From Tricholoma matsutake (taxonomy: Eukaryota; Basidiomycota; Agaricomycetes; Agaricales; Tricholomataceae), in NCBI GenBank assembly GCA_026075535.2, contig AP026538.1:10230001-10294000 (forward strand): DNA of 64,000 nt, in the 5' to 3' direction. Positions 8,327 through 56,804 of the stretch are shown piece after piece. The notes below the pieces were generated by a model, which was not told the DNA's origin, did no database searches, and was given only the letters and a program-made list of their open reading frames with translations. Within the stretch, counting starts at the first letter, position 1. The number at the start of each line of letters is the position of its first letter. A program made the position numbers and the translations under genes.

Positions 8327-8670
8327 TGTTGGAATCGCACCGTGAGTCCATAACACTTTTGATGTGTTTGATGCATGTGCTATTTAGCATTCCCTTTGAT
8401 CCATGTGGTTGGCTCATGTTTAAGTTTCCCCTTGTCTCTTTTCCTTTGACAAACATCCTTTTGTTACACATTACACATATATATATCTTCAGTAGTTTAC
8501 TTTATCACCTCAGTCACTTATCCAGAGACTGAGGTGAGCTATATTTACTATACATATTTATTGACACGTACTTACTCTACTACAACAGTTGTTTATACTA
8601 GGTATAGTATGGATTAATAAAGTCACTTATCCAGAGACTGAGTTGTTTATACTAGGATTCACTTTCTACA
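8327..8670 (+). repeat. Copia-1 5' LTR
   Basis: Begins TGTTGGAATC and ends TTTCTACA. It is internally duplicated: CACTTATCCAGAGACTGAG occurs twice and GTTGTTTATACTAGG occurs twice, so the U3/R region grew by direct duplication. Both duplications are also present in the 3' LTR and so predate insertion. Confidence 0.95.
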
Positions 8671-8682
8671 GGTTATGGGCCA
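8671..8682 (+). other. Copia-1 primer-binding site (initiator tRNA-Met, internal)
   Basis: GGTTATGGGCC lies immediately after the LTR. It is complementary to the anticodon-loop region of eukaryotic initiator tRNA-Met rather than to its CCA end. Drosophila copia uses this internal half-tRNA priming. The same motif follows the Copia-2 LTR. Confidence 0.75.
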
Positions 8683-8881
8683 TTCTCGTTGTCTTTGAAC
8701 AATGAAAGAAAGTATCCTAGCCACTCGACGTTCTGCTTTGTCATACCTTCTGATCCGTTTCCCTGATCATTTTTTGATCTCAGATCAATTCCTTTGTCTT
8801 TCACGGACCCAGCTGCTCTACCATTGCATCTCTCTCATCTCCCTTTGCACACTCGTCGTCCACTAACCTCAGTTTTCTATC

Positions 8882-9433
8882 ATGGGTACCAATACTGTTG
8901 ATCCCCCATCTGTTTCCCCTATCAAACTTTCTGTGCAATATACTGGGGAGAAGCTCGACAAACTTAAATCAAATTCCAAAGAATGGTGCGAGGAGATTAT
9001 TATTATTGCTTTATCATTAAATGGCCTTTATGAATATGTTATGGGCGGAATACCTGAGCCCACTTCTACCAAACTCCGAGTGCTTGCCAACTGGAAGGCG
9101 AATTCCTGCCTCGCATATGCATTTATCGCATCCAGCGTCTCTCCATCTGAGCATAAATTCCTGGACATTAAAGTAGGCCCTGATGTGAACTGGAAAATTC
9201 TCCAGGACCATCACCAGAAGGAAGGCCCCATTCGGCAGGTCCAGCTCTTACAACAAGTGCTTTCCATCCAGTGTACGAATGACACACCACTCCCCGAGAC
9301 AGCAGAAAAGATTTGCACATTAATTGAACGTGCTTTTGCCATGGGTGATATACAGGCTGATCTTCTTTGTTGCATCGCTCTCCTTAATTCCCTTAGTGAT
9401 AATTTTCCACATGCTCGCTCCATTATTTCATGA
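8882..9433 (+). pseudogene. gag: Copia-1 Gag N-terminal part
   Basis: Encodes the capsid-type region of Ty1/copia Gag, which assembles the virus-like particle. The frame opens with ATG at 8882, 211 bp after the LTR, and runs 183 codons with a helical UBN2-like pattern. It stops at TGA 9431-9433. The same frame continues with no further stop into the zinc-knuckle and protease region, so the TGA interrupts one polyprotein. A CGA to TGA transition at a CpG would explain it. Confidence 0.9.
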
Positions 9434-11512
9434 GATATTGCTGCTTCTTCCCTCTCAGCTCCATATGGCTCGAAAGATATCAAATTATTTATGGAGAACG
9501 AACAATCATTACTTGAGAATGATCAGCATGGTGATTCCAAAAACCATGCCGCTTTTACCGCACAGTCCAAATCTTCCAAGCTCCCTAATGCACCAATCTG
9601 CACCAATGCTAACTGTGGGAAACCTGGCCACATGAAACAATATTGCATTAAACCTGGCGGTGGTATGGCTGGGAAATCACTCGAGGAGTCGATCACTGCT
9701 CGCAGGGCTGCCCATGAGAAGAAATCCTTACCAGCTGGCACTACAAAGGTTCCTATTACCATGAAGGACATTAATGGTCATGCCTTCACTGTCATGGTCG
9801 ACCCCGATATTCCTACCCCACCTGCACCAGAATTTGCTGGGCTTGCTCACGACCTGCTGCCTTTAGACCCTTCGGACATGCTGGAATATGAAGGATGGGT
9901 TGCTGTGGAGGACGAGCTCACCACTACAGTGGACTGGAAACACCATACATCACCCATCCCTGACAATGCACTCACCGTGGAACCCCTTTCACAGACTTGT
10001 TGCTCACACATTACCTTAGACGCTCTCCCCTTTATTATTGACTCTGGGGCTACAGTACATATATCCCCTGACAAGTCTGACTTCCTCACCTTACGACCCT
10101 TTTCACCTTGCTCTGTCAGAGGTGTTGGTGGTTCATCTATTGATGCTGTCGGTGTTGGTGATATACAGCTAAGAATAGCCCAGGGCGCATCAATTATTTT
10201 ATGTAATGCCCTCTACATCCCAAAATCGGCAGTTTGGCTGATCTCAGTGGGCATGCTGGCCGACGACTCTAATGCTGTCGCACATTTTGACAGTAACACA
10301 TGCTGGTTCACTGATAAATCCTCCAGGGCCTTCATAGCTCATGGATTGCACATATCTAGAAAGCTTTACATGCTCAACATTGCATCGGCCCAGTCTGATC
10401 ATGCACTAATGGTTCACAAGACCCCTACTCTTGAGACATGGCATTGTCATCTGAGTCACACAAATTACCAGGCACTCTGGGATATGGCCAAGAAGGGTGC
10501 TTTCACTGGTGCGCTGCTCACTTCATTGCAAAAATTACCTAAATGTGATTCCTGTGTCATTGGCAAGCAGACCAAGTCTCCAGTCCCCAAGAAACGTCAG
10601 GAGGGACCAGGCCATAAGGTGACAAGGAAGCTAGAAAAGGTGTGGGTGGATCTATCTGGACCACATTCAGTAATGTTGCGTGTGGGGAACCGTTATATCA
10701 TGGATATAGTAGACGACTACACCTCATTCCCATGGTCTATACCATTGCAAAATAAAGATGATGCTTTCACGGAACTTAAAGCTTGGGAACTTGCCCGGGA
10801 GAACAAAACTGGCCTCAAAGTCGGGACCTATATCACCGATAATGGTGAACTTAAATCGCACGAAATGAAGGAGTGGTTGAAGACTCGTGGTATTGATCAG
10901 TGTTTCACAGCACCTCACACCTTGGCTTACATAGGCCGTGTTGAGCAAATGCATAGGACACTTATGGCTAAAGCGCACACTATGCGAATATATGCTGGTC
11001 TGCCAGCTTATTTGTGGGACAAGTTCTACCTCACAGCTGCCCACTTGCATGCCAAGACTATGACCCATTCACTAGCAAGCCTAATGCCTTGGGAATTATG
11101 GTATGAGAGAAAACCTGATTATTCTTATCTTCGCGAGATAGGTTGCAGGGCGTTTGTGCTTATCCCAGGAAAGGATAATCCCAAGATACTTGAACAATCC
11201 ATCGAATGCGTCTTGATAGGCTACGAGCCAAAATCAAAAGCATATCGCTGTTATAACCATGCAACACGTAAGGTTCATATTTCATATCATGTCCACTTTC
11301 TTGAGAGCCATGAAGGCTATTCACCACCTTCAATCAATGAATTAGGGGAGGATGATAATATTGGGTCCAGTGGTAGTCTACCCACATTCCTTGGTCCTAT
11401 TTTACAGCAAGACAATGATGTTGAGTCTTCTCATGAATTCACTCTCCCTGATGTGCCCTCTAATAGTCTCACGACACCACCACCGCCACCCATCGCCCAG
11501 CCTATTCATTGA
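9434..11512 (+). pseudogene. pol: Copia-1 zinc knuckle, protease and integrase
   Basis: Continues the Gag frame. A cysteine-histidine knuckle with CX4CX4HX4C spacing lies near 9599-9646. The aspartic protease signature IDSGAT follows, with its Asp at 10040-10042. The GAG-pre-integrase zinc module (WHCHLSH ... CDSCVIGK) lies at 10439-10572. The integrase core has Asp in VWVDLSGP, Asp in ITDNGEL and Glu in GRVEQMHRTL, so the DDE triad is retained. The frame ends at TGA 11510-11512 after a proline-rich linker. This too fits CGA to TGA, because the frame stays open through to the RT segment. Confidence 0.93.
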
Positions 11513-13396
11513 TCTACCCATGTTCTAATACCCACAGACAAAAACCCCAATGGTGGCCCTGCTATTACTAGAACAGCGGCTGCAGTGCAAGAATCCTTGG
11601 AGAGTGCTGCACATGTAAAGGAGGCGCGGCGGAAGCGTCAGGCTGCTATTGTGGCTGCACAATCGGATCACATTATGGATCAATCCTCTGATCATGATCG
11701 TGATGTCATGGAAGAACTCCAACAATCATTTCATAATCTTGATTTGGGCGATCAAGCGCATCAATTTCAGGCCCTGATCTTGGAAATGGGAGATTTTGAT
11801 CCGCAGTCACTTCAATTTGAGGATGAGCTGAAAACATGGGATGAAGCCAGAAGATCTGTTGATGCAACACGATGGGAGCGTGGATATCTGGAGGAATTGA
11901 ACTCATTGAAAGAAATGGGGGTATACAAACTACCTAGGTCAGAGGTTCCACTAGGGAAATGTATTAGGCATGGGAGACCAATTTTCCACATGAAGCACAA
12001 TGAGGCGGGTACCCCTATTAGATGGAAGGTATGCCTAGTCTTCAGAGGAAATGAACAAATTTATGGCAGGGACTACACCAAAACTACCTCACCGACTGTG
12101 CGCATGGAATCATGGCGGATTCTCTTACACATAGCCGCCTCACTTGGCTGGGATGCACAACAGGTCGACATAAAGACGGCCTTTCTTTACGGCTTACTTC
12201 CGGACGATGAAATTCAATATATGCAGCAGCCTGCTGGTTTCGAGGAGCAGGGCAAGGAGGACTGGGTTTGGCAACTACAGCATGGCTTATATGGTATGAA
12301 ACAGAGTGGGCACATTTGGAATCAGACCCTTAATGCGCAGATGCTAAATTGGGGATTCACCCGCCTCTCGTGCAAGTCCTGTATCTATTACTATAAAACT
12401 GACACTGGTACAATTATCGCTGCTGTCCATGTCAACAACTATTTAAACATCGCCGACTCCAAGGACAAAAACAAGCACTTCAAGAACCAGATGCACGAAG
12501 TATGGACTATCTCCAAATTGGGGATGGCACATTTTATTATGGGTATTGCTGTCTCATGGGACCAAGACATGTGTACTGTTGCACTTTCACAGACCGCTCT
12601 TATTGACAAAATAGTGGAACAGTTTGGTCAGAAAGAAGCACACCCTGTTTCTGCCCCATTGGACCCTGGTTCAAAACTACGGTGCTCCAATCTGCAATGT
12701 ATGTCCCAGGATGCCAGGAACACCCTGGCCAAGCTTCCCTACCGCTCTCTTGTCAGATGCTTATTGTACTTGGCAATATCTACACGTCCCGACATTCCTT
12801 ATGCAGTACAACAGCTCTCTCAATACCTTGATTCGTACTCCTCAGAACACTGGAGTGCTGCTATACGGCTAGTACGTTATCTAAAGGGAACTAGGGACTT
12901 GAAGCTTTATCTGGGCAGACAGAACCCCATTCTCCTGCACGCCTATAGTGACTCCAACTGGGCTAATTGCCATGATACTCATCGCAGCATTGGGGGATAC
13001 ATGTGCTCTCTTGGCTCAGGCACAGTGTGTAGGGCAGCACATAAACAGAAGGTAGTGGCAGCTTCCACCTGTGAAGCAGAATACATAGCAGTGTTTGAGA
13101 CCGCAAAGGAATGCATGTGGTTGCGTACACTACTACGCACTATTGATTTTCATCAAAACTTGCCTACTACCATCCTCTGCGACAACAATGCTATGAAGAA
13201 ATTATCCAAGGACCCATTACTTCATTCATGCATTAAGCACATCAACATCAAATATCATTTCCTATGCGAGTGTGTACAGTCAGGCAACCTAGCTATCACT
13301 TACATCCACACCTGTGACAATGTAGCTGACATGTTTACTAAAGCCCTGGAACCTAAACATTTTGCCGTCCTTCGTGCATCTCTTGGTCTTTGTTAG
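11513..13396 (+). pseudogene. pol: Copia-1 reverse transcriptase and RNase H
   Basis: In frame with the upstream parts. RT motifs include QQVDIKTAFLYG with the first catalytic Asp. The box normally reading YVDD is HVNN (12428-12439): both aspartate codons became AAC, which removes polymerase activity. Each change is G to A in a CpG context (GTC-GAC-GAC ancestor). RNase H follows with SDSNWA, STCEAEYIA, CDNN and DNVADMFTKAL, and the frame ends normally at 13394-13396. The product would copy element RNA into cDNA in the particle; this copy cannot. Confidence 0.93.
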
Positions 13397-13409
13397 TGGG
13401 ATTCCATGT

Positions 13410-13439
13410 GAGGAGGAGTGTATTCACAGTGAGGAGGAG
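13410..13439 (+). other. Copia-1 polypurine tract, duplicated
   Basis: GAGGAGGAG lies directly before the 3' LTR (13431-13439), as expected for the plus-strand primer. A second copy, GAGGAGGAGTG (13410-13420), lies 21 bp upstream, making a tandem duplication of the priming signal. Confidence 0.65.
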
Positions 13440-13784
13440 TGTTGGAATCACACTGTGAGTCCATAACACTTTTGATGTGTTTGATGCATGTGCTATTTTA
13501 GCATTCCCTTTGATCCGCATGGTCGGCTCATGTTTAAGTTTCCCCTTGTCTGTTTTCCTTTGACACACATCCTTTTGTTACACATTACACGTATATATAT
13601 CTTCAGTAGTTTACTTTATCACCTCAGTCACTTATCCAGAGACTGAGGTGAGCTATATTTACTATACATATTTATTGACACGTACTTACTCTACTACAAC
13701 AGTTGTTTATACTAGGTATAGTATGGATTAATAAAGTCACTTATCCAGAGACTGAGTTGTTTATACTAGGATTCACTTTCTACA
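13440..13784 (+). repeat. Copia-1 3' LTR
   Basis: About 97% identical to the 5' LTR and one base longer through a T insertion. Most differences are CG versus TG or CA. One TG/CA pair implies that each copy lost the same ancestral CpG on a different strand. Confidence 0.95.
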
Positions 13785-21870: not shown

Positions 21871-22370
21871 ACGTAGGAGAGAACAGATGAGTTGTACAGA
21901 TGATGTAAATATAGCATTGAGGCTTCAAGTCGCCAAAGGCAACCCAAACAGCAAGTGGGAGGACTCAGAAGAAATCCACAGGCAACGTAAAGCTGAGGTT
22001 CTTGGAATCCAAGTTCACATGTTCCAAAATCTGACTTCAGTCATCATTTTGAGGGCCATGCCTGCACATCTTGCAATCTCTACTTGAGCATTTTCTCTGT
22101 TATTGATTCAAAAGCTACCAGGCAGCAAAAATACGAAGGCAAGCAGTGTGACAGTGTCAAGGTTAATCTCAATAACTCCCCAGATGAATTTATAGAACCT
22201 AGTATGCAGGACATGAAGCAAGGCAATAACTTTGGTCATACAGAAAATTCTGAAGAAAAGTTGCCTTTTGTTAAGTTCTGAGTTGGGAAATGGAGATGTC
22301 AGATTTCTGGTCAGACCTGGATGGTTGAATTTGACAGAGCAGGATCCCAAAGGAATTCCGAGGCAAGAGT

Positions 22371-22815
22371 TGTTGGGACAGGAAGGACTTGGCTTCAGCT
22401 TATAAGAAGCTGCACCCTTCTCCTTGTCAAGTGTCCTAATTTCAGATAAGGTCAGAGGAGAGGATCGGAGGTCCAGAGGTTTTCTGGAGAGGACAAGTAA
22501 GGGTTTGAGGAAGACTTAAGAGAGATGAAAAGGGAGCAAAGATAGAGTTGGATTAATTGATTGACTTTGTTGATTTACAAACTGGCAATACAGAATGAAA
22601 GTAGCTAGCTTAAATACTAAGGTCAGAGTTTCCAAGGCTGTGGTAATATGAAAACCAGCTTCTGAGGCAAATCCTGAAACCATTTCACCTAATTGGAAAT
22701 GAGGAAATTTTGCCTCTAGGCAGTACTGCTGATAGGAGGTAGGCTGTGATGCAAGGCAGCTGGGAAGGGGGGCAGAAAATGATTGGAAATCCGGTTGAGA
22801 GAATTGGTCTTGACA
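22371..22815 (-). repeat. Gypsy-A 3' LTR
   Basis: Read on the minus strand it runs TGTCAAGACC ... CCCAACA, 445 bp, with TG/CA ends. The polypurine tract abuts it at 22816-22828. Shared features with the Gypsy-B LTR include the GCAGCTTCTTATAA block (CTTATAAGAAGCTGC here). Confidence 0.8.
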
Positions 22816-22949
22816 GTATTTCCCCCTTAGTGCTGAGCTTATGAGGCATGTGAAGGTTCGAATCCAAATCAGGTATGTTGATTTTGATGTTGATAGGTTC
22901 CCAGGTTTTTCTTCAACCACCACCACACCCCCTCACTCCCTTCGACAAG

Positions 22950-23776
22950 ATGTCCACTGTCCCCTCGTATGCAAAAAAGATAGCAGCCATCAAGGCCCAG
23001 CAGGAGCAATTGATGGAGGAGCTCCAGTTGAAAGAAGATGCCAGGGAAGCTGAGGAGCACTGAGCAGCAGAGGAGGCTGCCAAAGTGGAGGCAGCTAGGG
23101 TGGAGGCTGAGAAAAAGGCTGCAGAGGAGGAATGGAAGAAGACCACTGCTGCCAAGAGGGCAGAAAAGAAGCAGAAAGCCAGAGAAGTGGAGCCTGAAGA
23201 GGCTGAAGGGAGCACCCCCCCCAAGAAGAAGGTGAAAGGAAAGGCGAGGGTGGAGGTGCCCAAAACTGAAGTCCCCATGTGGCTACAAGCTGCCATTTTG
23301 TGCAAAAGGTGAGTCACATTTTATTCTTGTTACCTTCCATGCTGATTCCTAGTAGATGTTCAAGTCAAAAGTTGTCATGTTTCCAGACAGGAACCTGGGG
23401 TCAGGCCTGTGAGCCCTGCACAAAGGCGAAGCACAAGTGCAAAGAGGTGGTGTGGGAGGGGCAGGTGTTGCCAGCAGGACCCAAGCTAGGGGATAACAAG
23501 GGAGTAATGGAGTTGCTTAGGGAGTTGGTAGGGGCAGTAAAGGGGATGAAGAAAGAGTTGTGGGAGCTCTGGGAGCTCTGGGTTATAAGCAAGGGTGTGA
23601 TGGGTATTCAAGATACAATGTCTGACATCCAAGGAGTATTGGATCCAGAGTGGAGGTCGGAGTCTGAGGAGGAAGAGGGGGAAGAGGAGGATGAAGAAGA
23701 GGAGGAGCTAGAGGTACAAGGGGAGCTGCCGGGACTCGCAGAAGAAGCAGAGGGTGAGGGAGTGGGAGAGGAGTAG
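22950..23776 (+). pseudogene. Antisense Zn(II)2Cys6 gene of Gypsy-A
   Basis: Lies between chromodomain and 3' LTR, on the strand opposite to pol. ATG at 22950; exon 1 22950-23308; 47-nt intron 23309-23355 (AG/GTGAGT ... TAGTAG); exon 2 23356-23776. Total 780 nt, exactly in phase. The N-terminal ~115 residues are rich in Lys, Glu and Ala and look coiled-coil. Splicing creates CKRC across the junction and gives six cysteines with spacing CX2CX6CX9CX2CX6C (last part CEPCTKAKHKC), the fungal binuclear zinc-cluster pattern. A hydrophobic middle and a Glu-rich tail follow. One in-frame TGA (23061-23063) fits CGA. Fungal Zn2Cys6 domains bind DNA; that this one does so is inference. Confidence 0.75.
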
Positions 23777-23862
23777 GGATTGGGCAGGGATCCAGAGTTC
23801 TTTTAAATTTCTAATAATAACTTTGTGAATGGATGAGGATCTTGTTTTGAATTGAAGGAGTG

Positions 23863-24893
23863 TTAAGTGGAAAGAGGTCCGGGTTTCCCTGGGTAACAAG
23901 TGTGAAAGTCTGTAATGAGTTCCTGGGCATGATCAAGTTCCATAGCTGGAAGCCAGGAGGTTTCTTTGTCAGTTCCTTGGTAACCTTCCCACCATATGAA
24001 ATAGAGGAGCTTCCATTGATGACAGTTGTCAATCTTTGAATTGAGGATTTCCGCAATCTTGTACTCCAGTTTGTTGTCTATAATGACCAGAGGAGGTGGA
24101 GGTTGAATATGATTAGGAATCGTGTTGGGAGTGTCTTCTTCTAGTTGGGAGAGGTGGAATACTGGGTGGACACCCCGGAGGTGATCCAGAAGTTGAAGGG
24201 TAACTGAGTGGGTAGCCAGATGGGCAATGATCTCAAAAGGGCCATAGAACTTTTCTGAGAGCTTCTTGGAGGGTCATGTAGTGTGTAAGTGCTCGCCTTT
24301 GACAAAAGCATAATCACCGATTTTGAAGTCAGGAGCGGGTGCCTGGTGTTTGTCTGCAGTACCTTGATAGTGCTTCTGTGGTTCTGTGAGTTGCTTCTGG
24401 AGTTCCTGGTGGAGATCATCAAGGTTGACCACAAAATGGCATGCACGTTGCAAGGCTAGTTTGTGCTCCAGGAAAACTGTGATGTTTGGGTGGTAACCCT
24501 TGTTGGCAAAGAAGGGTGAAACTCTGGTGGAAGCTGAGGGAGCATTGTTGTACACAAATTCCCCCAAGAGTAAAAGCTGGGACCAGTTGTCCTGTTGGTA
24601 GTTGCAGAAGATCCACAAGTACTGTTCGAGGGTCTGGTTGAGGTGTTCAGTTTGTCCATCACCTTCTGGATGGTAACCCAAAGTGAAGTGGATTTGAATG
24701 TCCAGGGCTTGCCCGAGAGAGCAGAAGAAATGGGAAATGAACTTGGAACCCTGGTTGCAGGTGACGTGGGATGGAACACCATGTTTGGAGAAGATGTGCA
24801 TGATGAAGAGATTAGCAAGTTCTTGTGCCATGATTTCATTTACTGTGGGGATGAAGATACCCTGTTTGTAGAGTCGGTCTACAATGACTAGGA
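23863..24893 (-). pseudogene. pol: Gypsy-A integrase C-terminal half and chromodomain
   Basis: Open from the truncation point to TAA 23863-23865 except for one TGA (24274-24276). The integrase core reads CNQGSKF where CDxGSEF is usual, so the second catalytic Asp is Asn (24754-24756); the Glu in GDGQTEHLNQ remains. The C-terminal chromodomain keeps YKIAEILNSK, WWEGYQGTDKETSWLPA and ends ...CYPGKPGPL. Chromodomains of this family are thought to steer insertion to heterochromatin. Confidence 0.85.
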
Positions 24894-24906
24894 TGGCAGT
24901 GTGACT

Positions 24907-37963: not shown

Positions 37964-38880
37964 CATTTGCGTCCCTTAGATGGAGATCTGATGATGTTTT
38001 GTTAAGGTTGTAATAACGAAGCTCGACATAACAAACGACAATCAAGTCTGGCGCCTTTTGGAAGTTTAGGGTTGAAAATTTCGTTCGAAGTAATGCTGCC
38101 TGACTCAGTAGGGTAGTACACAGTAGACGAAATTGGCCGAATTTGATGCCAAAATCCCAACTGAAATCCATCATTTCAGCCAGATCCATTTTCTCAACTG
38201 AGCCATCAAATTCCAGAATTCAGCTTTGATGGCAAGCACATTTGGTGTCAAGATCTGTCTGTAACACATGCTTACAAATCTTTCTGGTGTTCTTCATGCT
38301 GAGGCAGAACCCTCAACTTCATCTTACTGGGAAACTGTAAATACAGAAACTATGCTAAAGAGACAGTACTGCCATAGCACAACTGATGGTAAGCCAAGCT
38401 GCAAGGCTCATTCCAACAGTGCAGCATTGTGTTGACACCCTGATGGGAAGGTGGTGGGAGGTGTTGCCACCATGTTGGTTTGGGCCACATAGGTAAGCTA
38501 CAGTGTATCGAATGATATGGTCTATTGAACACATACAATGTATCAAATGATATGGGTTTGATGGATGCTGTTGAACACTCTATATGTATATATATATATA
38601 CTGTAGTATCAAATAAATTCACTATTACTGTAAGGGGACAACCCCTGGGTAGGGTACCCAGCCCCTTCCTATGTTTATATCAGTCATGGACTCATTCCTA
38701 CATTCTGTTCCATTACATTACTCTAGCTTTGTTATCATTTGGCTACAGCCTTATCTTGGACAGTTGGAGTAGTGACCCTTCTTTAGTTCATTATTATTAG
38801 GAATTCCTCTGCTTACAGCAATACACTGGCCATGCTTTAGTGCCCCTTCTCTCTCTGATTGAGTCTCCTCTTGTTGCTGC

Positions 38881-39154
38881 TGTTGGAGCAGACTATATAC
38901 GCTGCACAGTGGAAGAGACAACACGTTCCTTACAACCTACCTGGGGTTTACTTAGACTTACAGCTAGGGTTAGCAGAGGTAAGAACACTGTATTCCTACT
39001 ACGGTACAGGTTCTCCTTATATACATAATAATAAGGATGTCACATGACTCAGGAATGTGTTTACCACATGTATGCGCAGTAAGCGCAGTAACATGCATAT
39101 GCTGCATGTATTGCCTCATGTATACAGCATGCATCACTGGGATTAATTTCAACA
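38881..39154 (-). repeat. Copia-2 3' LTR
   Basis: Same length as the 5' LTR with no indels. The C-rich stretch next to it (39155-39161), read as GGGGGG on the coding strand, is the polypurine tract. Confidence 0.96.
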
Positions 39155-39186
39155 CCCCCCCTCAAACTGTACAGCGCTCTAAGCAG

Positions 39187-40932
39187 CTAAGTTTGAATCT
39201 CGAAAGTAATTCCGAGAGAGTCTCTAAATTTCCTGAATAGGACAGCGCCAAGGTTCTTTGTGAACATGTCAGCCGGATTATCACTTCCAGGAATGAAAAC
39301 GACTGTGACTTTGTCATTTTCTATGCATTCGCGGGTGTAGTGGTAGTGAATGTCTATATGTTTGGTCCTTCTTTCCTGAACTGGATTTGATCCAATAAAG
39401 ATGGATCCCTGATTATCAGCGCAGATTGGTATGCGCTTCAGTGTATATCCAAGTTCCTGGAATAAGGACTCTATCCACACTATCTGCCGACAAGTGTCAG
39501 AGAGAGCCATATATTTGGCTTCTGTGGATGACAGTGCTACAGTTTTTTGTAAATGGGACTGCCAGCACACAATGCCACTCGCCAGAGTAGCAAAGTAACC
39601 CGTTGTAGATCGGCGCTTGACAGTGTCAGCTGCCCAATCAGAATCTGTGAAGGCCTGCAGCCCCTCGGATTTCTCTCCATCATAGACTATACTGTACTTC
39701 TGGGTTCCCACCAGATAGCGCATTATGTACATTGCTTTGTCTAGATGTTCTTGGCTAGGATTAGCCGAGAATTGCGACATCTTGATTACCGCGTAAGCGA
39801 TATCAGGTCGCGTTCTGAGCATCAGATACAATAAAGATCCGATCACAGACTGATATTTCGATCTAAGTGCCGCGTTTGGCATCGCTGTGTTCTCCGACGG
39901 TTTGTAGCCAGTCGGGAGCAGAGTGGGGGCAACTTTGGCATTTGTCATCTCGAACCTCTCGAGCACTTTGGCGAGATATTCTGTTTGATCGAGTTTGACT
40001 TTTGTAGTGGTCTGGGTGACGCGCATGCCTAAGAATTCCGTGACTTTTTCAGTACTACAGCACTCCCAATGCTTCAGGCAAGCATTCTTCTTTTCATCCA
40101 CAAGTTTCTTGTTCTTGCCCATGAACAAGCCATCGTCAACATAGACTAGCGCAATAATGATGCTGCCTGTCTTAGGATCCTTGTGTATGAAGATGCCGGC
40201 ATCGGAGCTGGCGCGCACAAACCCAATGGTGCGCATAAATGCCTCTAGCTCTTTCCACCATGCTAGTGAAGCCTGTTTAAGGCCATACAATGCTCGGCAT
40301 AAGCGCATTACTTTGCGCTCTTTACCCTCAAGTCTGAAACCCTCGGGTTGATCCATATAGATCTCCTCATCAAGTTTGCCATATAAAAATGCGGTTTTTA
40401 CATCTAGACCGGTCATATACATGCCTTCTAGAGATGCAAGGGCAAACATGAGGCGTACAGTCTTGTAGCGGACTACTGGTGAGAAAATCTCATCAAAGTC
40501 AACGCCTTCAACTTGTGAAAAGCCTTTGGCCATGAGTCTGGCTCATTTTCTTCCGTCCAATTTCACGGAGAAAACCCATCTATTTTTGATCGTTTTCTGA
40601 TTATGTGGAAGATCGACGATATCATAGACTTGTCGCTTGCGAAGAGCCTCTAACTCTTCACGACAAGCCTGTTTCCACTCAAGTTGCTGCTGCCAGGGTA
40701 GGCACGCAATATCACGAAATTGGTTTGGAACTAGGCTTTTTCTGCTTGATGGTGTGACTGCTTTTGATAACAGCCAGCGGATAAGCTCATCTCCACCTTC
40801 CTTGGTTATCTTTTTAATATAACCTGCTTTGTCCGGTTCCCCCATTGGGTAATCATGTTTTTGATTATTGGAATCGGGCACACTCTCGTGGGGTGCCGAA
40901 CTCGGTCCAGCAACCGGTTCTTGCTGTTGAGG
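39187..40932 (-). pseudogene. pol: Copia-2 reverse transcriptase and RNase H
   Basis: Minus-strand segment from just after TGA 40933-40935 to TAG 39187-39189. It holds WKQACREELEAL at the RT start, then ARLMAKGFSQVEGVDFDEIF, the first catalytic Asp in LDVKTAFLYG and an intact YVDD box (LVYVDDGLFMG). RNase H retains FTDSDWA, SSTEAKYMA, ADNQGS and DNPADMFTKNL, so the catalytic residues are present. One TGA (40543-40545) falls between KLDGRK and ARLMAKGF; a CGA ancestor gives the expected basic residue there. Confidence 0.93.
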
Positions 40933-40935
40933 TCA

Positions 40936-42066
40936 TGGTTGTGTTCGGTTATGATCCGAATCTTGACCCACAGACTTCTTCCAATATCGATCACGCGCAA
41001 TGTCTCTCTCTATGTCAGAGGGGAGTCGCTGTTCTCCATAGGTATTGCCGGGACGGTTTGGGATTTTCCTCTGCCTGCCTGATCGACGGGGCAATTGCTG
41101 CCATTCCTGTTGATCTTCACATCTTGGACGAAAGTCCTCAGTGTTAACTGGAGGCGGTGGAGGAGGAGCGTTAGTCGCATCGTCATGCGCCTTTTGCTCA
41201 CTTGGTAAATCATCATCATCATCTTCTGATGATGGAGGAAGGGGCGGATTTTGTGGTGGTATAGGGTCATCGCCATCCGTTCCAGATGAGTGGTCGTCAT
41301 CTTCTGGTTCTGGAGGTGGAAAATCACCAAGGTCTGTCTTGGCAGGAGTTTTAGCTCTGGGACAGCATGGGAACATCGTTTCATCAAATAGTGCCATGGC
41401 ACCAATGAATATTGCGCCATTTTGTCACATGAAACAATATGCTTTAATACCATCTTCTACTCCAAGGTACGTCATTAACTCTGATCGAGGAGATAATGTT
41501 GTTGGATGTTTTTCCTTTGGTAGATAGACATAAGCACCGCAACTGAAGACCTTCAGATTGTTTATATCTGGGCAGACCTTTGTCAGGTCCTCAAAAGGTG
41601 TCAGCCATTTCAGGCGCCTTATTGGGGTTTGGTTGTATAAATGTGTTGCATGTTCTATGCAAAATTCCCACCATGATTGTGGTAGACAAGCGGTGAATCG
41701 CAAGGTTTGCGACTTTTCCATTATTGTCCTTATGGCGCACTCTGCACGCCCGTTCTGTTGATGAACGTGGGGTGCAGACATCTCTATTTTGATGCCTAAG
41801 TCCTTGAGCTGTTTTTGTAGCTCACAATCCTTGAACTCCCCCCCTGGATCGACATTCCAGCGCTTGATTGTAGCGCCATATTGGGTTTTAGCCATTGCTT
41901 GAAATTGTCTAATCGCTGCAGCAGCGTCAGATTTCTTTCTGAGACATTGGACCCAAATATGTGACATTTTGTCATCCAGAAATACAATGAAGTATTTATG
42001 TTTGTGGTACGATAGTACCGGGAGTTCCTTTAGGTCGGAATGTATTAATTCAAAGGATTTGTCAGC
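40936..42066 (-). pseudogene. pol: Copia-2 integrase core and linker
   Basis: After TGA 42067-42069 the frame gives ELIHSDLKELPVLS with the first integrase Asp, VDPGGEF with the second and QNGRAECAIRTI with the Glu. The Cys after AE would be Arg in related elements; CGC to TGC at a CpG fits. A second TGA (41425-41427) separates the integrase C-terminus from a long acidic, proline-rich linker (PPEPEDDDHSSGTDGDD). Integrase would insert the cDNA into the genome. Confidence 0.88.
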
Positions 42067-44058
42067 TCATGAGTCTGACTCGGGAAAAGATTTTGAGGTC
42101 ATTTTCCCTTCTGCACACCCTGGACATATAATTTTGTCTTTAGGAATAATTAAATTCCTTGGGAATTTTATGGTGCTTTTAGGCATTTTCCCTAGCGCCT
42201 CTTTGGATGGGTGTCCAAGTTGCCTATGCCAAGTCAAGTAGTCAGCGACATAAATGGTCGCGACATTAACCTTTTTGGTGCTCAATATATGAGTCCGAGC
42301 CCAATAGATCATGTCATTCCTCCTTAGAGGGACACAATGCATGATTGGGTTTCCATGCTCGATAAATGAAATGTGTGCGGAGGAACCATGCACATCACTT
42401 CCGTCTTGTAAAAAGACCCTCATTGACATCAATTGAGTATTAATGTTGGGTATGTAGTAGACGGGGAATAACCGCGTTTCACACGTCTCTGACTTCCCGT
42501 GACATACTACCTGGTGTTTAATTAAGACTGCTCCTTTTCCTACTATATGAGTAGTAGTACCAGTGGCCGTTTGGACCAAGGTAGAGTCCTTTCTCAGTAA
42601 AGGCTCGTAAGAAGCGAAATCTTTTATTTCACCAGTGAAGTGTTTTGATGCGCCTGAATCCATGATCCAGTCGGCACCTTTCTTACAATCTCCCTTTGCA
42701 CACATAGCACATATATTAAGATCTAAATAATTCCATGATACATTTAATAGCGGTAAAATTTCACATGAAAAGTTCGCTGTATTCATAGGAATATTAATCT
42801 TAGTGCTTGTGGCAGGGAAAAGGACTGACCTGTCATCATACGCCCCTGTATCAAGGGGTTCATCGACAAGCATTTCGTCGATGGCTTTCCACACTTCCTC
42901 ATCAGACACCGGAGGTTCAGATCCAAGGGAGACGGTATCATCTTCTACCTCCTCGATCCTAGACTCGGGTTCTGGTTCTATCCTTCTTCTCTTTCCTTCT
43001 CGCACCGTCAGGTGCTCTTCCAGCGGTCGCAGATTTTTCGCGCTGCGCAGAAGTTGCATTTGCTCGAGGGTGTCTCGAGCTTGCTGATATTCGGCATAAA
43101 CCGAACGAGAGGTAGAGGCTGCGCCCATATATGCCTGTGCAGGTGGTCGGCGGCGAGGATCCCTTGTGGGAGTGTGTTCGCATCTTTCGATGCGCTGTAT
43201 AAGCAGCATCGGCGGTATGATGGTGCCATTACCATTTATGGTGGTATAGGCTTTGGAGGCGAGGTGGGTATGTTTATCCTTCGGCTTCTCCTCCTTAGTC
43301 TTTCTGTCCCCACGTTGTCCACACTTTCGGGACGAGTCTCCGTTGCTGTTTTGCCCTTCTTTGGGCTGCCATTTGGGGTTTCCCCCTTTGCACTTAACAG
43401 CAGAAAGTTTGTTGGCCTGAGGCTGGCCAGTGGGCTTTCCTACTGCTGTGCGCCTTGAGGCTTCAGCGACAATGGAGTCCTTGACATGTTTAAATGTCAA
43501 GGCGCTAGTAGCGGTCGTGTTAAGGACCGTTGCGGACAAGGAATCGTACTTGTGTGGCATCGCAGCAAGTAGAATCATTGCTTGCACTAGCTCAGGGATG
43601 GCGATGTTAGCAGCCGTAAGGTGCTCAAATTTGTCTGCCATTCTAGCAATCTCCGGTGCAGGGTTCGCAGCCGGGATCTTGATCGCTATTGTGGACCTAA
43701 AGTCCGCGAAGACTTGGGAGGGGCCGTCCACACCATAATTGGTGCGGATAAGATCCCACACCTCCTCAGCAGTGTCCTTTGAGTTGGCACGCTGCTGAAT
43801 GGAGGGGGCCAGGCGGAGCACTAGGCTACCAATGGCCTGGTCATTTTTGTTGCTCCAGGTCTGGAGCTTGGCATTAGCATCCGCTACCAAAGTAGCATTC
43901 ATCGCCATCAGGGGAGGCGCCGGGGGCGGTTTTTGCTCCGCCCCGCTAGTTATTTGCCAGAGGACCTGAGACCTGAGCCACGCCTTCATTAAGTTGGCCC
44001 ATTGAATGTAATTTGATCCGTCGAAAGTTTGAACGAGTTTCTCAAGAGTTGAAGACAT
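42067..44058 (-). pseudogene. gag: Copia-2 Gag, protease and integrase N-terminus
   Basis: The first ATG of the frame is at 44058. Gag starts MSSTLEKLVQTFDGSNY, with WANLMKAWLR typical of the UBN2-type capsid region. A cysteine knuckle is degenerate (only KCGQRG remains). The protease signature is MDSGASKHF (about 42650). The pre-integrase zinc module follows as WHRQLGH ... CPGCAEGK before the TGA at 42067-42069. A charged Arg/Glu-rich spacer of about 150 residues lies between Gag and protease. Confidence 0.9.
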
Positions 44059-44285
44059 GATTTTGTGGTGGCAGCTGTTAAAAGTGCTCAATCAGTCTTT
44101 TTACTCAATAAAACATGTTTAACGTTCTCAGGAGAAAACACTCCTTCAGAGTGGTTAACCCTAGTCAACCTAGGTTTTATGTGCAGCTCGCAGGGAGTGC
44201 AATGCAGCTCACGAAGAGCACAAGGTTATAATTTGGAGACGATGAAGTCAACGTCGTTCACAGCCAATTAAGGTGCGTTCACGAC

Positions 44286-44307
44286 GTGCCCAGCAGGGCC
44301 CATAACC
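44286..44307 (-). other. Copia-2 primer-binding site
   Basis: On the coding strand GGTTATGGGCCCTGCTGGGC follows the LTR. It matches the internal region of initiator tRNA-Met around the anticodon loop, longer than in Copia-1. This indicates half-tRNA priming. Confidence 0.8.
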
Positions 44308-44581
44308 TGTTGGAGCAGACTATATATGCTGCACAGTGGAAGAGACAACACGTTCCTTACAACCTACCTGGGGTTTACTTAGACTTACAGCTAGGGTTAG
44401 CAGAGGTAAGAACACTGTATTCCTACTACGGTACAGGTTCTCCTTATATACATAATAATAAGGACATCACATGACTCAGGAATGTGTTTACTGCATGTAT
44501 GCACAGTAAGCGCAGTAACATGTGTATGCTGCATGTATTGCCTCATGTATACAGCATGCATCACTGGGATTAATTTCAACA
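44308..44581 (-). repeat. Copia-2 5' LTR
   Basis: 274 bp. Compared with the other LTR it differs at 8 positions grouped in five dinucleotides, each of which is CG in one copy, or TG in one and CA in the other. Confidence 0.96.
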
Positions 44582-44779
44582 GCTGCAGGGTCTTGCCCTT
44601 ACAATTACAATCCTTGCTGTCTTATACACTACATATGTGTAATGAAGAATGTAATATATAGCTCAGTGACCTATGCATTCAAGGACACAATCAGCAGCGG
44701 CACTGGCATGGGGCATTACCATTGGGCATCACCATTGGGAATCAGGATGGGGAGTTGGCATTCATTTGTTAGACCTATG

Positions 44780-46140
44780 TAGTATACAGACCTACAAAAT
44801 AAAATTGGTGCCGAGTGCTGTTCAGCAGCCTGGTGGCTGTGGCCAATGCTGATGCCACCTAAACAAAACCCCAATGCCGAAGGTTGTACAGCATCATGTA
44901 TGTAAAGGCCTCTTTTAAGTGATAATTAATTTGTTGTAGTATGCAGACCTACAAAATGAGGTTGGTGCTGAGTGGTGCTCAGCAACCCAGTGGCTGTGCC
45001 AATGCCATCTAAAAAAAATCTTGATGCCGAAGGTTGTACAGCGTCATGTATGATATACTCAGTAAATGCCCTGTTTATGTGATAATTAATTTATTGTAGT
45101 ATGAAGACTTACAAAATGAGGTTGGTGCTGAGTGGTGCTCAGCAACCCAGTGGCTGTGCCAATGCCAATGCCAATGCCACCTAAAAAAAATTCCCGATGC
45201 CGATGCCTTGTTTCTGCAATAATTAATTTGTTCAATGTAGTATGCAGGCCTACAAAATGAGGTTGGTGCCAAGTGGTGCTCAGCACCCCAGTGGCTGTGG
45301 CTGATGCTGATGCCACCGAAAAAAAAAATCCTGATGCCATACAGTGACATGTATGATAAACTCAGTAAATGCCCTGTTTATGTGATAGTTAATTTGTTGT
45401 AGTATGAAGACTTACAAAATGAGGTCAGTGCCGAGTGCTGCTCAGCAACCCGGTGGCTGTGCTGATGCCAATGCCAATGCCACCTAAAAGAATTTCCTGA
45501 TGCCGTACAGTGACATGTATGATAAACTCAGTAAATGCCCTGTTTATGCAATAATTAATTTGTTGTAGTATGAAGACTTACAAAATGAGGTTGGTGCTGA
45601 GTGCTGCTCAGCAACCCAGTGGCTGTGGCTGATGCCACCTAAAAAAAATCCTGATGCCAACAGTTGTACAGTGTCATATATGATAAACTCAGTAAAGGCC
45701 TCATTTAAGTGATAATTAATTTGTTGTAGTATGCAGACCTAGACAATGAGCTCAGTGCCAAGTGCTGCTTGGCCCCCATGTCACTGTGGCCAATGCTACC
45801 AAAAAAAAATTCCCAATGCTGTACAGTGACATGTATGAGAAACTCAGTAAATGCTTTCATTTATGCAATAATTAATTTGTTGTAGTATGAAGACCTACAA
45901 AACAAGGTTGGTGATGAGTACTGCTCAGCAACCCAGTGGCCATGCTAATGCTGATGCTGATGCCACCTAAAAAAAATCCCGATGCCAAAGGTTGTATACA
46001 CTGTCATTAATATACTCAGTAAAGGTCTCATTTCAGCGATAATTAATGTGTTGTAGTATACAGACCTACAACATGAGGTCAGTGCTGAGTGATGCTTGGC
46101 AACCCAGTGGCCATGGCCATGGCCAATGCCAAGAGGTCTT
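44780..46140 (+). repeat. ~160-bp tandem array, left arm
   Basis: Nine unit starts with TGTAGTAT at 44780, 44935, 45095, 45236, 45398, 45564, 45725, 45881 and 46052 (spacing 141-171 bp). Each unit has ACAAAATGAGGTTGGTGC, AACCCAGTGGCTGTG, a variable number of CCAATG/CTGATG hexamers, a run of A and GATAATTAATTTGTTG. Length variation comes mostly from the hexamers and from loss of the GTACAG-CATGTATGAT part. Confidence 0.88.
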
Positions 46141-46414
46141 CATTCATTTATGTTGTAATGTGCCAACCTACAGAATGGGGTCAGTGTGCAGAGTTTTCAT
46201 GTGTCTGTGTCTAGTTTTGTTGAGTTTTTAACAATTGTTCTCCTGATTGATCTATGGACTTTTTGGTATCTATGGGTTTGTCTTGATGATCTCTATTCAC
46301 AATAATTGTGTACCAACCCTCAACTCCATCCCCTCCATCACCATGCCCATCCGTTGAGGTTATTCAACCTCCAGACTTGCATATAATTTCCTCCAACATC
46401 ATACCTCATTCTGT

Positions 46415-47795
46415 AGGTCTGCATACTACAACAAAATGTAAATGAGGCTTTGACTCTACTGAATAAATCATACACCACACTGTGCACCTTGCAGAATCAA
46501 GAAATTTTCCTAGGTGGCAACCTCATTTTGTAAGTCTTCATACTACAACAAATTAATTATCACATAAACAGGGCATTTATTGAGTGTATCATGCATGACA
46601 CTGTACAACCTGCGGCATTGAGATTTTTTTAGATGGCATTGGCATTGGCCACAGCCACTGGGGTGATGAGCACCGCTTGGCACCAACCTCATTTTGTAGG
46701 TCTGCATACTACATTGAACAAATTAATTATTGCATAAATGAGGCCAGCATGGGGAATTTTTGTTAGGTCACATTGGCATTGGCATTGGCACAGCCACCAG
46801 GTTGCCAAGCAGCACTCAGCACCAACCTCATTTTGTAAGTCTTCATACTACAACAAATTAATTATCACATAAACAGGGCATTTACTGAGTATATCATACA
46901 TGACACTGTACAACCTTCAGCATCGAGATCTTTTTTAGATGGCATTGGCATTGGCATTGGCCACAGCCACTGGGGTGCTGAGCACCACTTGGCACCAACC
47001 TCATTTTGTAGGTCTGCATACTACATTGAACAAATTAATTATTGCATAAACAAGGCTTCAGCATCAGGAATTTTTTTTTGGTGGCATCAGCATTGGCATT
47101 GGCCACAGCTACTGGGGTGCTGAGCATCACTCAGCACCAACCTCATTTTGTAGGTCTGCATACTAAAACAAATTAACTATCACATAAACAGGGCATTTAC
47201 TGAGTTTATCATACATGTCACTGTATGGCATCAGGATTTTTTTTTTGGTGGCATTGGCATTGGCATCAGCCACTGCCACAGGGGTGCTGAGCACCACTCA
47301 GCACCAACCTCATTTTGTAGGTCTGCATACTACATTGAACAAATTAATTATTGCATAAATGCATCAGCATTGGGAATTTTTTTTAGGTGGCATTGGCACA
47401 GCCACCAGGTTGCTGAACAGCACTCGGCACCAACCTCATTTTGTAAGTCTTCATACTACAACAAATTAATTATCACATAAACAGGGCATTTACTGAGTTT
47501 ATCATACATGTCACTGTATGGCATTGGGAATTTTGTTTTGGGTGGCATTGGCATTGGCATTGGCCACTGCCACAGGGTTGCTGAGAAGCACTCAGGACCG
47601 ACCTCATTTTGTAGGTCTGCATACTACAACAAATTAATTATCACTTAAATGAGGCCTTTACTAAGTTTATCATACATGATGCTGTACAACCTTTGGCATT
47701 GGGGTTTTGTTTAGGTGGCATTGGCATTGGCCACAGCCACCAGGCTATTGACCAGTGCTTGGCACCAATTTTATTTTGTAGGTCTGTATACTACA
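46415..47795 (-). repeat. ~160-bp tandem array, right arm
   Basis: Ten copies of the same unit in the opposite orientation, marked by ATACTACA (one is ATACTAAA) ending at 46430, 46547, 46713, 46852, 47025, 47167, 47334, 47460, 47628 and 47795. Paired with the left array they can form a hairpin of more than 1 kb. Confidence 0.88.
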
Positions 47796-48469
47796 TAGGT
47801 CTAACAAATGAATGCCAACTCCCCATCCTGATTCCCAATGGTGATGCCCAATGGTAATGCCCCATGCTGTTGCCATTGCTGTTGCTGGTGCCGATTGTGT
47901 CTGATGCATAGGTCACTGAGCTATATATTACATTCATTACACATATGTAGTGTATAAAACAGCAAGGATTGTAATAGTGAATTTATTTGATACTACAGTA
48001 TATATATATATACATATAGAGTATTTGACAGCATCCACTGAACCTGTATCATTCGATACACTGTAGCTTACCTATCTGTTGAGGCAGGAGCACCATGCCA
48101 GACCACAGATGAATCAGGGGAAGAGTAGGTGCTTTCTACTTTTCATGGGTTGTAGTAGGCTCCTTGCCTGAGATAAATACACAGGACTAGTTAGTAGTTT
48201 ATCAAGAGGCTAAAATAGCTTACTTTGCATGACACAAATGTGCCATGATGTGGAAGCAGTTGAGAGTGTGGTGAGACAACAGAAAATGAATGTTTGTCAG
48301 CATTTCTGTATTTGGAAGGTGTCACAGTGTCACAGATTTTGATGCCAAATGTGCTTGCCAGCTGAATTCCTGAATTCAATGGCTTGGTCGAGAAATGGAT
48401 ATGGCCAAAATGATGGATTTCAGTTTGGATTTTGGCATCAAATTCAGCCAATTTCATCTACTAGTGTCT

Positions 48470-49068: not shown

Positions 49069-49073
49069 CATTT

Positions 49074-49771
49074 TGTCATGATCCGTTCCTTGTCTGCTTG
49101 GAACCCACAACCATCCGACCATTTTCCGCACTTCTAACCCAACTCCTTCTGCCTTCATTCCAGCCGCCTTGCACTGCCCACATTGCTGTGCACCAGGCCA
49201 CCTTGTACAGCACCCACGGCTGCCTTCCCAAGGCTGCCATCTAGTTTTGCAAATTCGACTACGGATTCCTGTGTGGCCTCCGCTAGGTAATTTATCTATG
49301 CAGTCAAGACACTGCTGCAGTTCCTGTTTCTGTCCTGCTTTTATTCTGGACTCTAGTATTTAAGTTTAGTTAGTTTTGCCTTGTATTCCTCAGTTTGTAT
49401 ATCGACATAGACTCGACTTTAACTTGTCAATCTAAATCTCATTCTACTCCTACCTCTGTCCTCTAAGAGTCTGAACTCCATTTGACTCAACCTCTAGTCT
49501 CCCTCTGAAGTTCTAGTCTCATCTGAACTTAACCTAAGTCTCTTTGTACTCCTTTCCACACTCACCCGCCACTTCTCTGCCTCCATCTCTAAATCTTCAT
49601 CTTGAAATTAGGACACCAGACGAGGTGAAGGGTGCAGCTTCTTATAAAGCTGAAGCCAAGTCCTTTTCATTTCCCCTCTGCATAATCTGCTACGACCCGA
49701 CAATTTCCCGCTATCAACACCTGCCAGGTCCAACTGGATTATGACAAGCCCTCACGGATCAGTTCTTAACA
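49074..49771 (+). repeat. Gypsy-B 5' LTR
   Basis: 698 bp, TGTCATGATCC ... TTCTTAACA. It contains CTTCTTATAAAGCTGAAG, a TATA-like hairpin also present in the Gypsy-A LTR, and a series of TCTAGTCTC-type repeats. It carries a TCTAGT-region insertion of a few bases relative to the 3' LTR. Confidence 0.93.
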
Positions 49772-50016
49772 GTATATATTAACAGTATATACAAACTCAC
49801 ACTTCACTCATCTCTTCTCCTCCTATGACCCCAACCAAAACTTGCCAGTGCACAACCAGAAACTCTCAGCGCGCTGGCACCATTCCAGGGATCTCTGCAA
49901 TTCAGTGATCCACACTTCCTAGCCCATGACCCGCCACAACATTTGGAGTATCTTCCAGACCTTCCAATATTTTCCAACAAATTGATTCCGGAGCCCCATC
50001 AGTCAGTGCAAACCTC

Positions 50017-51204
50017 ATGTCTACTCAAGCCCAACAACCTCCCATGAATCCAGAAGAACCCCAACCCACAACTCCTCTTGAGTACATAGGGGGCATCAAC
50101 CAGCCTGAACCCTATGGGTTGGAAGATCGTGGTCTAGAGGATGGACCTCCCAGCAGACCTGACAACCCTAGTGGTCCTGACAGCCCTGGGGGCGACCCCA
50201 ATCCCAATGATCCTGACGATCAACCTCCCACAGGGGGAAACCCTGATCCAGGGGATAGGTTCATAGATGTTCTTTACAACCTCTCGGAGAGTATCCACAC
50301 CCTCTGACAAAACAATGCACCCAAGACCAAGAAAATCAAAGTTCATGACCCTGACACCTTTGATGGCTCCAACCCAAAGAAACTTAGAGACTTCCTAGTC
50401 TTGTGTAATCTTCATTTCTGCAACCATCCACACATATTTTCTTCTGATGAGAAAAAGATCATATTTATCCTTTCTTATCTCAAGGGATCAGCTCTCAGTT
50501 GGTTTGAACCCGGTCTTAATGACCCAACTGATTCCACACACTGGATGTGGGATTATGAAGCTTTCCTCACCAAGCTAGAGAGCAACTTCAGCCTGCACAA
50601 CCTGGTCAGGGATGCAGAAAAAGCCCTTTCTGACTTAGCAATGAAAAAAGGTGGTCGCATCACAAAGTATAACATTGACTTCTGGGAGTTAGCTTCTAGG
50701 GTCAACTGGAATGAGGAAGCCCTCCATGACTGCTATTTCTGCGGTCTTCCACTCTGACTTCACATAGAAGTCCTTTGGGGTGGTAAACCCAACACCCTTG
50801 CAGAACTGCACTTGAAAGCGCAGGACTGTGATGATATCTACTGGATGCAGGAGGATGAAACCCAATTTGAAACTAAGAATTCTGGAAACTCTTCTACCCC
50901 TGTCAAGAAGGACACCCCCAAAAGTTCCTCCCAGTCTACCAATCAATCCTCTTTGAACTCTGCTCAGGGTAACTCATCCAACCAGCAGTCTTCCACAACA
51001 AAGAACACTTCCAAGTCATCCATCTCTGATAAATTGGGGAAGAATAGCAAACTTACTGTGGAAGAACAAGAACATTGCATGAGGGAAAGACTTTGTCTCT
51101 ACTGCAGTGAAGAAGGGCATGTAGCAGGAAACTGCCTGAAATCTAAAGCCGCAAAAGCCTGTGCATCTGCTGTGATTCCTGAATCTGTGGACTTGGAAAA
51201 ATAG
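50017..51204 (+). pseudogene. gag: Gypsy-B Gag
   Basis: Starts near ATG 50017 with a Pro/Asp/Gly-rich N-terminus. The retrotransposon Gag domain (LKGSALSWFEPG, FLTKLESNF) follows. The C-terminal zinc knuckle CLYCSEEGHVAGNC (CX2CX4HX4C) lies at about 51094-51135. One frame throughout, broken by TGA 50305-50307 and 50755-50757, both explicable as CGA, and ending at TAG 51202-51204. Confidence 0.85.
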
Positions 51205-51260
51205 TCTGCAACCCTCAGGATACAGCCATTGGGGCTGGGGGTTGCATTGACCTTACCCAT

Positions 51261-56799: not shown

Positions 56800-56804
56800 C
56801 ATTT

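Follow-up and report, generated by a model that had tools for sequence, protein, structure and literature searches.

The antisense gene in the two window copies

The window, by which we mean the whole 64,000-nucleotide stretch of Tricholoma matsutake DNA analysed here (contig AP026538.1, positions 10,230,001 to 10,294,000 of the forward strand), contains two Gypsy copies, Gypsy-A and Gypsy-B, each bearing a gene on the strand opposite to pol. In Gypsy-A the gene occupies 22950–23776 of the + strand, in agreement with the coordinates and orientation given by the first-pass annotation. Exon 1 (22950–23308, + strand) encodes a coiled coil and a basic stretch, PKKKVKGK, and ends in Cys112-Lys-; it is followed by a 47-nt intron (23309–23355, + strand; GTGAGT...GCTGAT...TAGTAG), after which exon 2 (23356–23776, + strand) runs from Cys115 through the motif KEVVWEGQ, a helical region and an acidic tail to the stop. 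Excision of the intron unites the two reading frames and, as had been proposed, splicing itself creates the first CX2C of the pattern CX2CX6CX9CX2CX6C, with Cys112 supplied by exon 1 and Cys115 by exon 2. The accompanying claim that this copy is exactly in phase over 780 nt does not hold, since codon 38 of exon 1 is an in-frame TGA (23061–23063).

Gypsy-A is a fragment in which the 3′ LTR (22269–22819, − strand, 84% identical to the LTR of copy L031), the gene and the integrase–chromodomain region are present. The C-terminal part of the integrase and the chromodomain (23866–24810 on the − strand, the sense strand of the element) are 84% identical to the integrase–chromodomain query from L037 and contain one TGA, and the DNA match of this region spans 23738–24905. 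An RT query run against the window matched only Gypsy-B, leaving Gypsy-A without an RT match. CpG is strongly depleted in this material, with observed/expected ratios of 0.12 in the Gypsy-A gene (22950–23776) and 0.13–0.48 in eight LTRs, compared with 0.49 in the window as a whole, which suggests methylation-driven decay of this gene and of the LTRs.

Gypsy-B is a complete element of 7.7 kb (49074–56799, + strand) with CATTT on both sides (49069–49073 and 56800–56804). Its 5′ LTR (49074–49771, + strand) is 90.8% identical to the 3′ LTR with which it is paired (56109–56799, + strand), and the internal part at 51760–54819 (+ strand) comprises RT–RNaseH (51760–53650) and an integrase/chromodomain region (53655–54819), both placed by DNA match to L031; a Pfam scan of 53411–54592 gave Integrase_H2C2 above its cut-off and SH3_Tf2-1 and rve below theirs. 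The presence here of a homologous gene opposite pol, with the shared motifs KCKEVVWEGQ and DPEW, was confirmed. Exon 2 with its stop (55106–55529, − strand) is homologous to that of the A type, and exon 1 (55580–55973, − strand) is broken by stops and frame changes. The further statement that the intron has the same position as in Gypsy-A is correct for the family but not as regards a working intron in the window copy: at the corresponding position (55530–55579, − strand, placed by comparison with L046) CTGAC and TAG are kept and the donor GT has become CT, whereas the B-type relative L046:2-c.545, the exon 1 of which also has in-frame stops, retains the donor GT there (GTGTGT...CTGAT...TAG).

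Between the 3′ LTR and the gene lies a conserved 33-nt block, found at 22829–22861 of the + strand in Gypsy-A, with one mismatch to a degenerate pattern, and at 56063–56095 of the − strand in Gypsy-B, with none. These two are the matches of the pattern in the window, where shuffles gave none; genome-wide, irrespective of position, 424 matches are free of mismatches and the reversed control pattern has none. Between polypurine tract and gene, the A and B types have a nearly identical block of about 45 nt, which a pattern search located in 21 of 30 A copies and in both of the two B copies. Within it lie an inverted repeat, GCCT-AYG-AGGC, and CACGTG; some copies also have GGTTCGAATCC, which we take to resemble a tRNA T-arm or a Pol III B box. 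An RNA family or tRNA at this place was considered and set aside, with no Rfam match in L046 1–3500 and no tRNA in the window. The block may serve the gene as a promoter or binding site, or it may act in cis in the priming of the second strand. GAL4-type CGG/CCG sites were also sought in eight LTRs, of which two belong to the same element, and no pair was shared among them; the few pairs present (in L032, L048 and the Gypsy-B 3′ LTR) are each confined to one LTR.

The window holds further repetitive DNA. Two Copia-type elements with RVT_2 and gag domains lie at 8383–13784 and 38880–44581; their LTRs are 98% and 97% identical, respectively, compared with 90.8% in Gypsy-B, and they are therefore probably younger than that element. 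Beside the second of them, arrays of an approximately 160-nt repeat at 44692–47881 form a long inverted structure, the left part of which (to about 46160) is 77–93% complementary to the right part in the pairs listed. Near the end of the window, a retroelement open reading frame at 62149–63324 (+ strand) matches RVP_2, a retroviral aspartyl protease domain, with a score that barely exceeds the cut-off, and its element probably extends beyond the window.

Element family, linkage and intron

The antisense gene is real and marks two sister subfamilies of chromoviruses (Ty3/Gypsy), referred to here as A and B. In a search of the genome (161,040,721 bases in 13 contigs), exon 2 of the A type returned at least 150 copies (the best 150 of 700 candidates, all of which matched) on all 13 contigs, and exon 2 of the B type likewise at least 150 (the best 150 of 795 candidates, all matching), with zero overlap between the two lists of 150. 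RT, RNase H, integrase and chromodomain occur in order between LTRs, as in chromoviruses of the Ty3/Gypsy group; the Pfam evidence is pieced together from three copies, with RVT_1 and RNase H in L031 and L045, SH3_Tf2-1 and Chromo above their cut-offs in L037, and rve below its cut-off in L031, where RT precedes the integrase.

Linkage was examined with a query consisting of the integrase C-terminus and chromodomain, for which 126 of 7620 candidates were scored, 64 of them at 80% identity or more and 62 below. Among the matches listed, the A-type gene lies antisense and 145–327 nt downstream of 53 of the 64 closer integrases; 11 of the 64 are without a listed A-type gene, and a B-type gene, at 2240 nt, accompanies one of the 64. 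The B-type gene lies antisense and 192–285 nt downstream of 20 of the 62 more distant integrases, none of which is followed by an A-type gene among the matches listed, and no listed gene was found within 2.5 kb on the 5′ side of an integrase. Counted from the gene side, a downstream integrase is listed for 53 of the 150 listed A-type matches; the list of integrases covers far less than the whole family. Recurrence of the gene at the same place and on the same strand in 53/64 and 20/62 integrase matches indicates that it is not there by chance. This position, antisense between pol and the 3′ LTR, is that of the genes termed aORF-3R, and, as is described for such genes, the A-type gene is found in most copies; the lower B-type fraction was obtained with the best 150 of the 795 gene candidates.

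The context of the gene was followed in a sample of 31 copies, made up of 22 long loci, including both window copies, and nine short ones. The first-pass annotation had allowed that matches might prove to be mostly stand-alone host genes; an integrase is adjacent and antisense to the gene in 30 of the 31, and the exception, L049, does have RT sequence. An upstream match to the A-type LTR is present in 24 of the 31, in Gypsy-B over 68 nt only. Elements with paired LTRs are 7.3–7.9 kb long, with LTRs of about 500–700 bp. Compared by eye, the 5-bp flanks match in three of six LTR-paired A copies (L032, L035 and L048); in L031 they differ by one base, and in L041 and L045 there is no match. Such flanks, with the CATTT pair of Gypsy-B, show that the gene lies inside elements bounded by target-site duplications.

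The exon junction could be mapped in 29 of 30 A copies, L023 being unmappable at that point; L011 and L030 have insertions near the intron, and their junctions were taken from separate alignment pieces. A GT-AG intron is kept in 26 of the 29, with lengths over all 29 of 46 nt (three copies), 47 nt (four), 48 nt (18), 49 nt (two), 28 nt (one) and 57 nt (one). CTRAY occurs inside the last 20 nt of every mapped intron, and the unspliced frame meets a stop in all 29 copies. Retention of the intron fits with the sense RNA being the RNA that is reverse transcribed.

Protein, coding frame and selection

In five open A copies the protein is about 234–265 residues long and consists of an N-terminal coiled coil, a basic, NLS-like stretch resembling PKKKVKGK, six cysteines, the KEVVWEGQ motif, a helical region and, at its end, an acidic tail (in L032, 29 of the final 49 residues). 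The cysteines, whose lack of conservation in intact copies had been named as grounds for doubt, are conserved in the mapped copies: cysteines 112, 115, 122, 132, 135 and 142 are kept in 28/29, 30/30, 30/30, 30/30, 29/30 and 30/30 copies, respectively. The full CX2CX6CX9CX2CX6C is present in 25 of the 29 mapped copies, and these 25, together with the database relative P0001 (see below) and the B-type L046, show the Zn(II)2Cys6 spacing CX2CX6CX5-12CX2CX6-8C.

Assignment of the protein to the fungal Zn(II)2Cys6 class by the first-pass annotation is borne out by this spacing but not by similarity beyond the cysteines. The Pfam Zn_clus model (PF00172, cut-off 21) scored 8.0 bits on P0001 and 11.2 bits on the isolated segment and was unlisted for the two full spliced proteins. 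A PROSITE-style pattern fits 14 of the 29 mapped copies. When the sequence was compared by profile with seven yeast zinc clusters, its score was equalled by 20 of 100 cysteine-keeping shuffles and two of 100 full shuffles, and it was the second cysteine triad that aligned with the first triad of GAL4. A structure model of P0001 (with exon rows) had a mean pLDDT of 70.6 and a pTM of 0.35, with helices at 84–95 and 104–108 around the cysteines placed at low confidence (pLDDT 39–54 in the cysteine-region block). Matches to solved structures, sought independently of this model, were at chance level only. A Dendrin match in Pfam on one protein (E = 0.00086, below the cut-off) was taken to reflect low complexity. 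We therefore describe the domain as a candidate zinc cluster by spacing, and not as a proven Zn(II)2Cys6 member.

Database searches returned one close relative, P0001 (218 residues, from a single 970-nt contig, source lgn), with 58% identity across 89% of the query region (E = 9.4e-27). It reads SCKRCMGQKLSC over the splice junction without an intron and derives either from RNA or from a copy that lacks the intron. P0002 (167 residues, source ena; E = 7.9e-4) has CLACGKEKQKCMGAVWEG and the following helix, with CxxCx6C and VWEG kept; it is a probable weak relative, which suggests a wider protein family in other genomes. An IMG/VR scan yielded 312 pattern matches with no relative among them, and a database search with the B-type frame of the window gave five candidates, none of them a relative.

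For the analysis of the coding frame, 30 copies were mapped onto the columns of L003, with frame-shifting indels not scored as stops. The gene frame contains five stops in 3017 codons of exon 1 and two in 3943 of exon 2, against 84 and 157 in the other two forward frames of exon 1 and 198 and 241 in those of exon 2; the reverse frames contain 36, 94 and three stops in exon 1 and 55, 73 and 56 in exon 2. Variants shared between copies fall preferentially at third codon positions, with 34, 30 and 58 of 114, 114 and 113 sites at the three positions of exon 1 (Fisher p = 4e-5) and 28, 37 and 70 of 145, 143 and 143 sites in exon 2 (p = 5e-8). Exon 1 is the fairer test, since similarity to part of exon 2 was the basis on which the copies were selected. 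A sense-strand gene at the same place was rejected: the mirror frame of exon 2 contains 55 stops among its 3940 codons, and not one of the 30 copies is open in it. The mirror frame of exon 1 is nearly free of stops (3/3023 codons).

Since the decay of copies resembles CpG loss, observed ratios of non-synonymous to synonymous changes were corrected by comparison with the same changes moved to sites that share their trinucleotide context. Rather than near 1, the outcome named in the first-pass annotation as one that would refute its reading, the corrected N/S is below 1 and close to that of pol. Over all pairs it is 0.68 for exon 1 and 0.56 for the core of exon 2; with rising divergence the exon 2 core drops from 0.78 to 0.53 and exon 1 has no clear trend (0.69, 0.76, 0.69, 0.67). 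At a divergence of 0.08–0.14 the values are 0.62 for the exon 2 core, 0.76 for exon 1, 0.64 for RT and 0.65 for the integrase, while control frames in the LTR gave 0.86, 1.11 and 1.14 in this range and 0.83, 1.07 and 1.18 over all pairs; as one control frame is thus also below 1 (0.83), the exon 1 ratio is weak on its own. At divergences of 0.2 or more the ratio is lower in pol (RT 0.35, integrase 0.33) than in the exon 2 core (0.53). The pairs behind these ratios are not independent, and Gypsy-B is counted in the figures for pol but not in those for the gene. On the opposite strand, the mirror frames gave 0.72 against 0.68 in exon 1 and 0.63 against 0.56 in the exon 2 core; they share third positions with the gene frame, so that N/S separates the strands weakly and the stops and cysteines separate them better.

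Where an indel occurs in two or more copies, its length is a multiple of three in 12 of 18 cases within the exons and in seven of 37 in the intron and flanks. Among distinct indels the corresponding figures are 16/45 in exon 1, which is no excess, 28/46 in the exon 2 tail and 1/4 in the exon 2 core. Both exons are open in 11 of 30 copies by script criteria that disregard splice sites and cysteines, and 29 of the 45 exon 1 indels are not multiples of three; most copies are thus decaying. Third-position bias, scarce stops and a pol-like corrected N/S nevertheless indicate selection on the protein, and a chance reading frame is ruled out by the stops, the third-position bias, the cysteines and N/S together.

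Distances between gene copies correlate with those between their integrases over 20 A copies (r = 0.63, with 0 of 2000 permutations as high). Judged as an aORF-3R, the gene is pol-like in N/S at a divergence of 0.08–0.14, yet the mean DNA distance across A copies is 0.169 for the gene and 0.112 for the integrase, and the A and B proteins are 33–40% identical over exon 2, compared with about 72% for the integrases of the two groups; on this last comparison the antisense protein evolves faster than the integrase. Taken together, the results support an element-borne, antisense, spliced and selected protein gene shared by two subfamilies.

Possible function and known antisense genes

The basic stretch, the candidate zinc cluster and the acidic tail, together with analogy, lead us to propose that the spliced antisense gene of the two sister subfamilies encodes a nuclear accessory regulator of element transcription or integration, a reading to which we assign a probability of roughly 0.55. 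Transcription would start from a promoter most likely in or adjoining the 3′ LTR, and the antisense RNA would be spliced by the host, which would complete the six-cysteine candidate binuclear zinc cluster. The protein would then be imported into the nucleus, where it may bind zinc and DNA and act as an element-encoded accessory regulator, comparable to the antisense product HBZ of HTLV-1, which has a spliced form and a bZIP role. A more specific proposal, which we consider possible but rather unlikely, is that the protein recognises the block of about 45 nt described above, forming a sense/antisense autoregulatory switch that is older than the split of the subfamilies and is also present in other fungi.

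A role as an accessory integration factor, with the basic stretch bringing the preintegration complex into the nucleus and the acidic and coiled-coil parts contacting chromatin beside the chromodomain integrase, overlaps with the regulatory reading, so that the odds of the two are not exclusive; taken by itself we consider it possible but rather unlikely. The PKKKVKGK-like stretch and acidic tail of the spliced copies and the place of the gene beside the integrase in 30 of 31 contexts are consistent with such a role, and nuclear import has been raised for proteins of this kind in passages of one account (PMC7264820), but a late-acting import factor would have no obvious need for a separate antisense, spliced transcript. 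It is improbable that the protein binds chromatin or components of the silencing machinery and so relieves host silencing, such as that of methylated, CpG-depleted copies. The CpG ratio of the window gene (0.12 against 0.49) is consistent with methylation-linked decay, under which relief from silencing would pay, whereas the Pfam scan gave no homology to known counter-silencing proteins.

We think it very improbable that the antisense RNA is itself the functional product, limiting the sense RNA through dsRNA with an incidental reading frame. Formation of dsRNA is named as a possible role of such transcripts in the source just cited (PMC7264820, in part), but third-position bias, scarce stops, kept cysteines and a pol-like N/S are not expected of a function in RNA only, and the intron would serve no purpose. 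Most improbable of all is a passenger captured by transduction of a host zinc-cluster gene: the spliceosomal intron and zinc-cluster-like spacing look host-like, but the same place in both subfamilies, a divergence shared with the integrase and the signs of selection speak against a recent passenger, and no stand-alone copy occurs among the 31 contexts.

Returning to the nuclear regulator, the system has several useful traits, namely a candidate zinc cluster, many copies and selection that can be measured against pol and LTR within the same elements, and the conserved intron makes a spliced antisense RNA easy to recognise. If the protein regulates its element, HBZ would have a counterpart in fungi, and self-regulation of an LTR element would become testable in a mushroom. 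To our knowledge, a function has nowhere been established for an antisense gene of an LTR retrotransposon, and no antisense zinc-cluster gene in a fungal retrotransposon was found among the titles and abstract openings of the open-access literature.

Antisense genes in this position are already known, and what is new here is a variant with an intron and a candidate zinc cluster. The statement in the first-pass annotation that LTR retrotransposons rarely carry extra antisense genes was accordingly too strong: passages of PMC7264820 describe them, in this same position, from plants and from Boty, a fungal element, with products proposed to be regulators of transposition. Most antisense proteins of LTR elements are said there to lack clear similarity to others, SMC and transposase 28 domains being those named (PMC7264820).

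Among the closest known systems by description is brtn of Boty/BcGypsy1 from Botrytis cinerea, in which a fungal Gypsy element with a polyprotein ending in IN and CHROMO bears an antisense gene between pol and the 3′ LTR (PMC7264820, PMC4227169, PMC8365987); the passages on brtn in these sources mention neither an intron nor a zinc motif. The plant aORF-3R genes (Grande gene23, RIRE2, PvRetro13 and Retand TRP28), as described in parts of PMC7264820 and PMC11963269, share the antisense position between pol and the 3′ LTR and the presence in most copies. According to the same passages, the product of Grande gene23 is nuclear (PMC7264820, PMC11963269) and Retand TRP28 is thought capable of DNA binding (PMC11963269), but the plant proteins are of other types, SMC and transposase 28 domains being those named (PMC7264820, PMC11963269). 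Retand is not a chromovirus. The Gypsy element marY1, also from T. matsutake, differs in size, the only feature compared, with 6047 bp and 426-bp LTRs in the description given in PMC10211490, against 7.3–7.9 kb and about 500–700 bp here.

Fungal Zn(II)2Cys6 transcription factors (PF00172) share the CX2CX6CX9CX2CX6C spacing, unlike which the element protein stays under the Pfam cut-off and is borne by a retrotransposon. HBZ of HTLV-1 likewise derives from an antisense gene and is nuclear (PMC11963269, in part), and its antisense promoter lies in the 3′ LTR (PMC7264820, in part). It belongs to a human retrovirus and has a bZIP instead of a cysteine cluster, and the comparison does not imply common descent.
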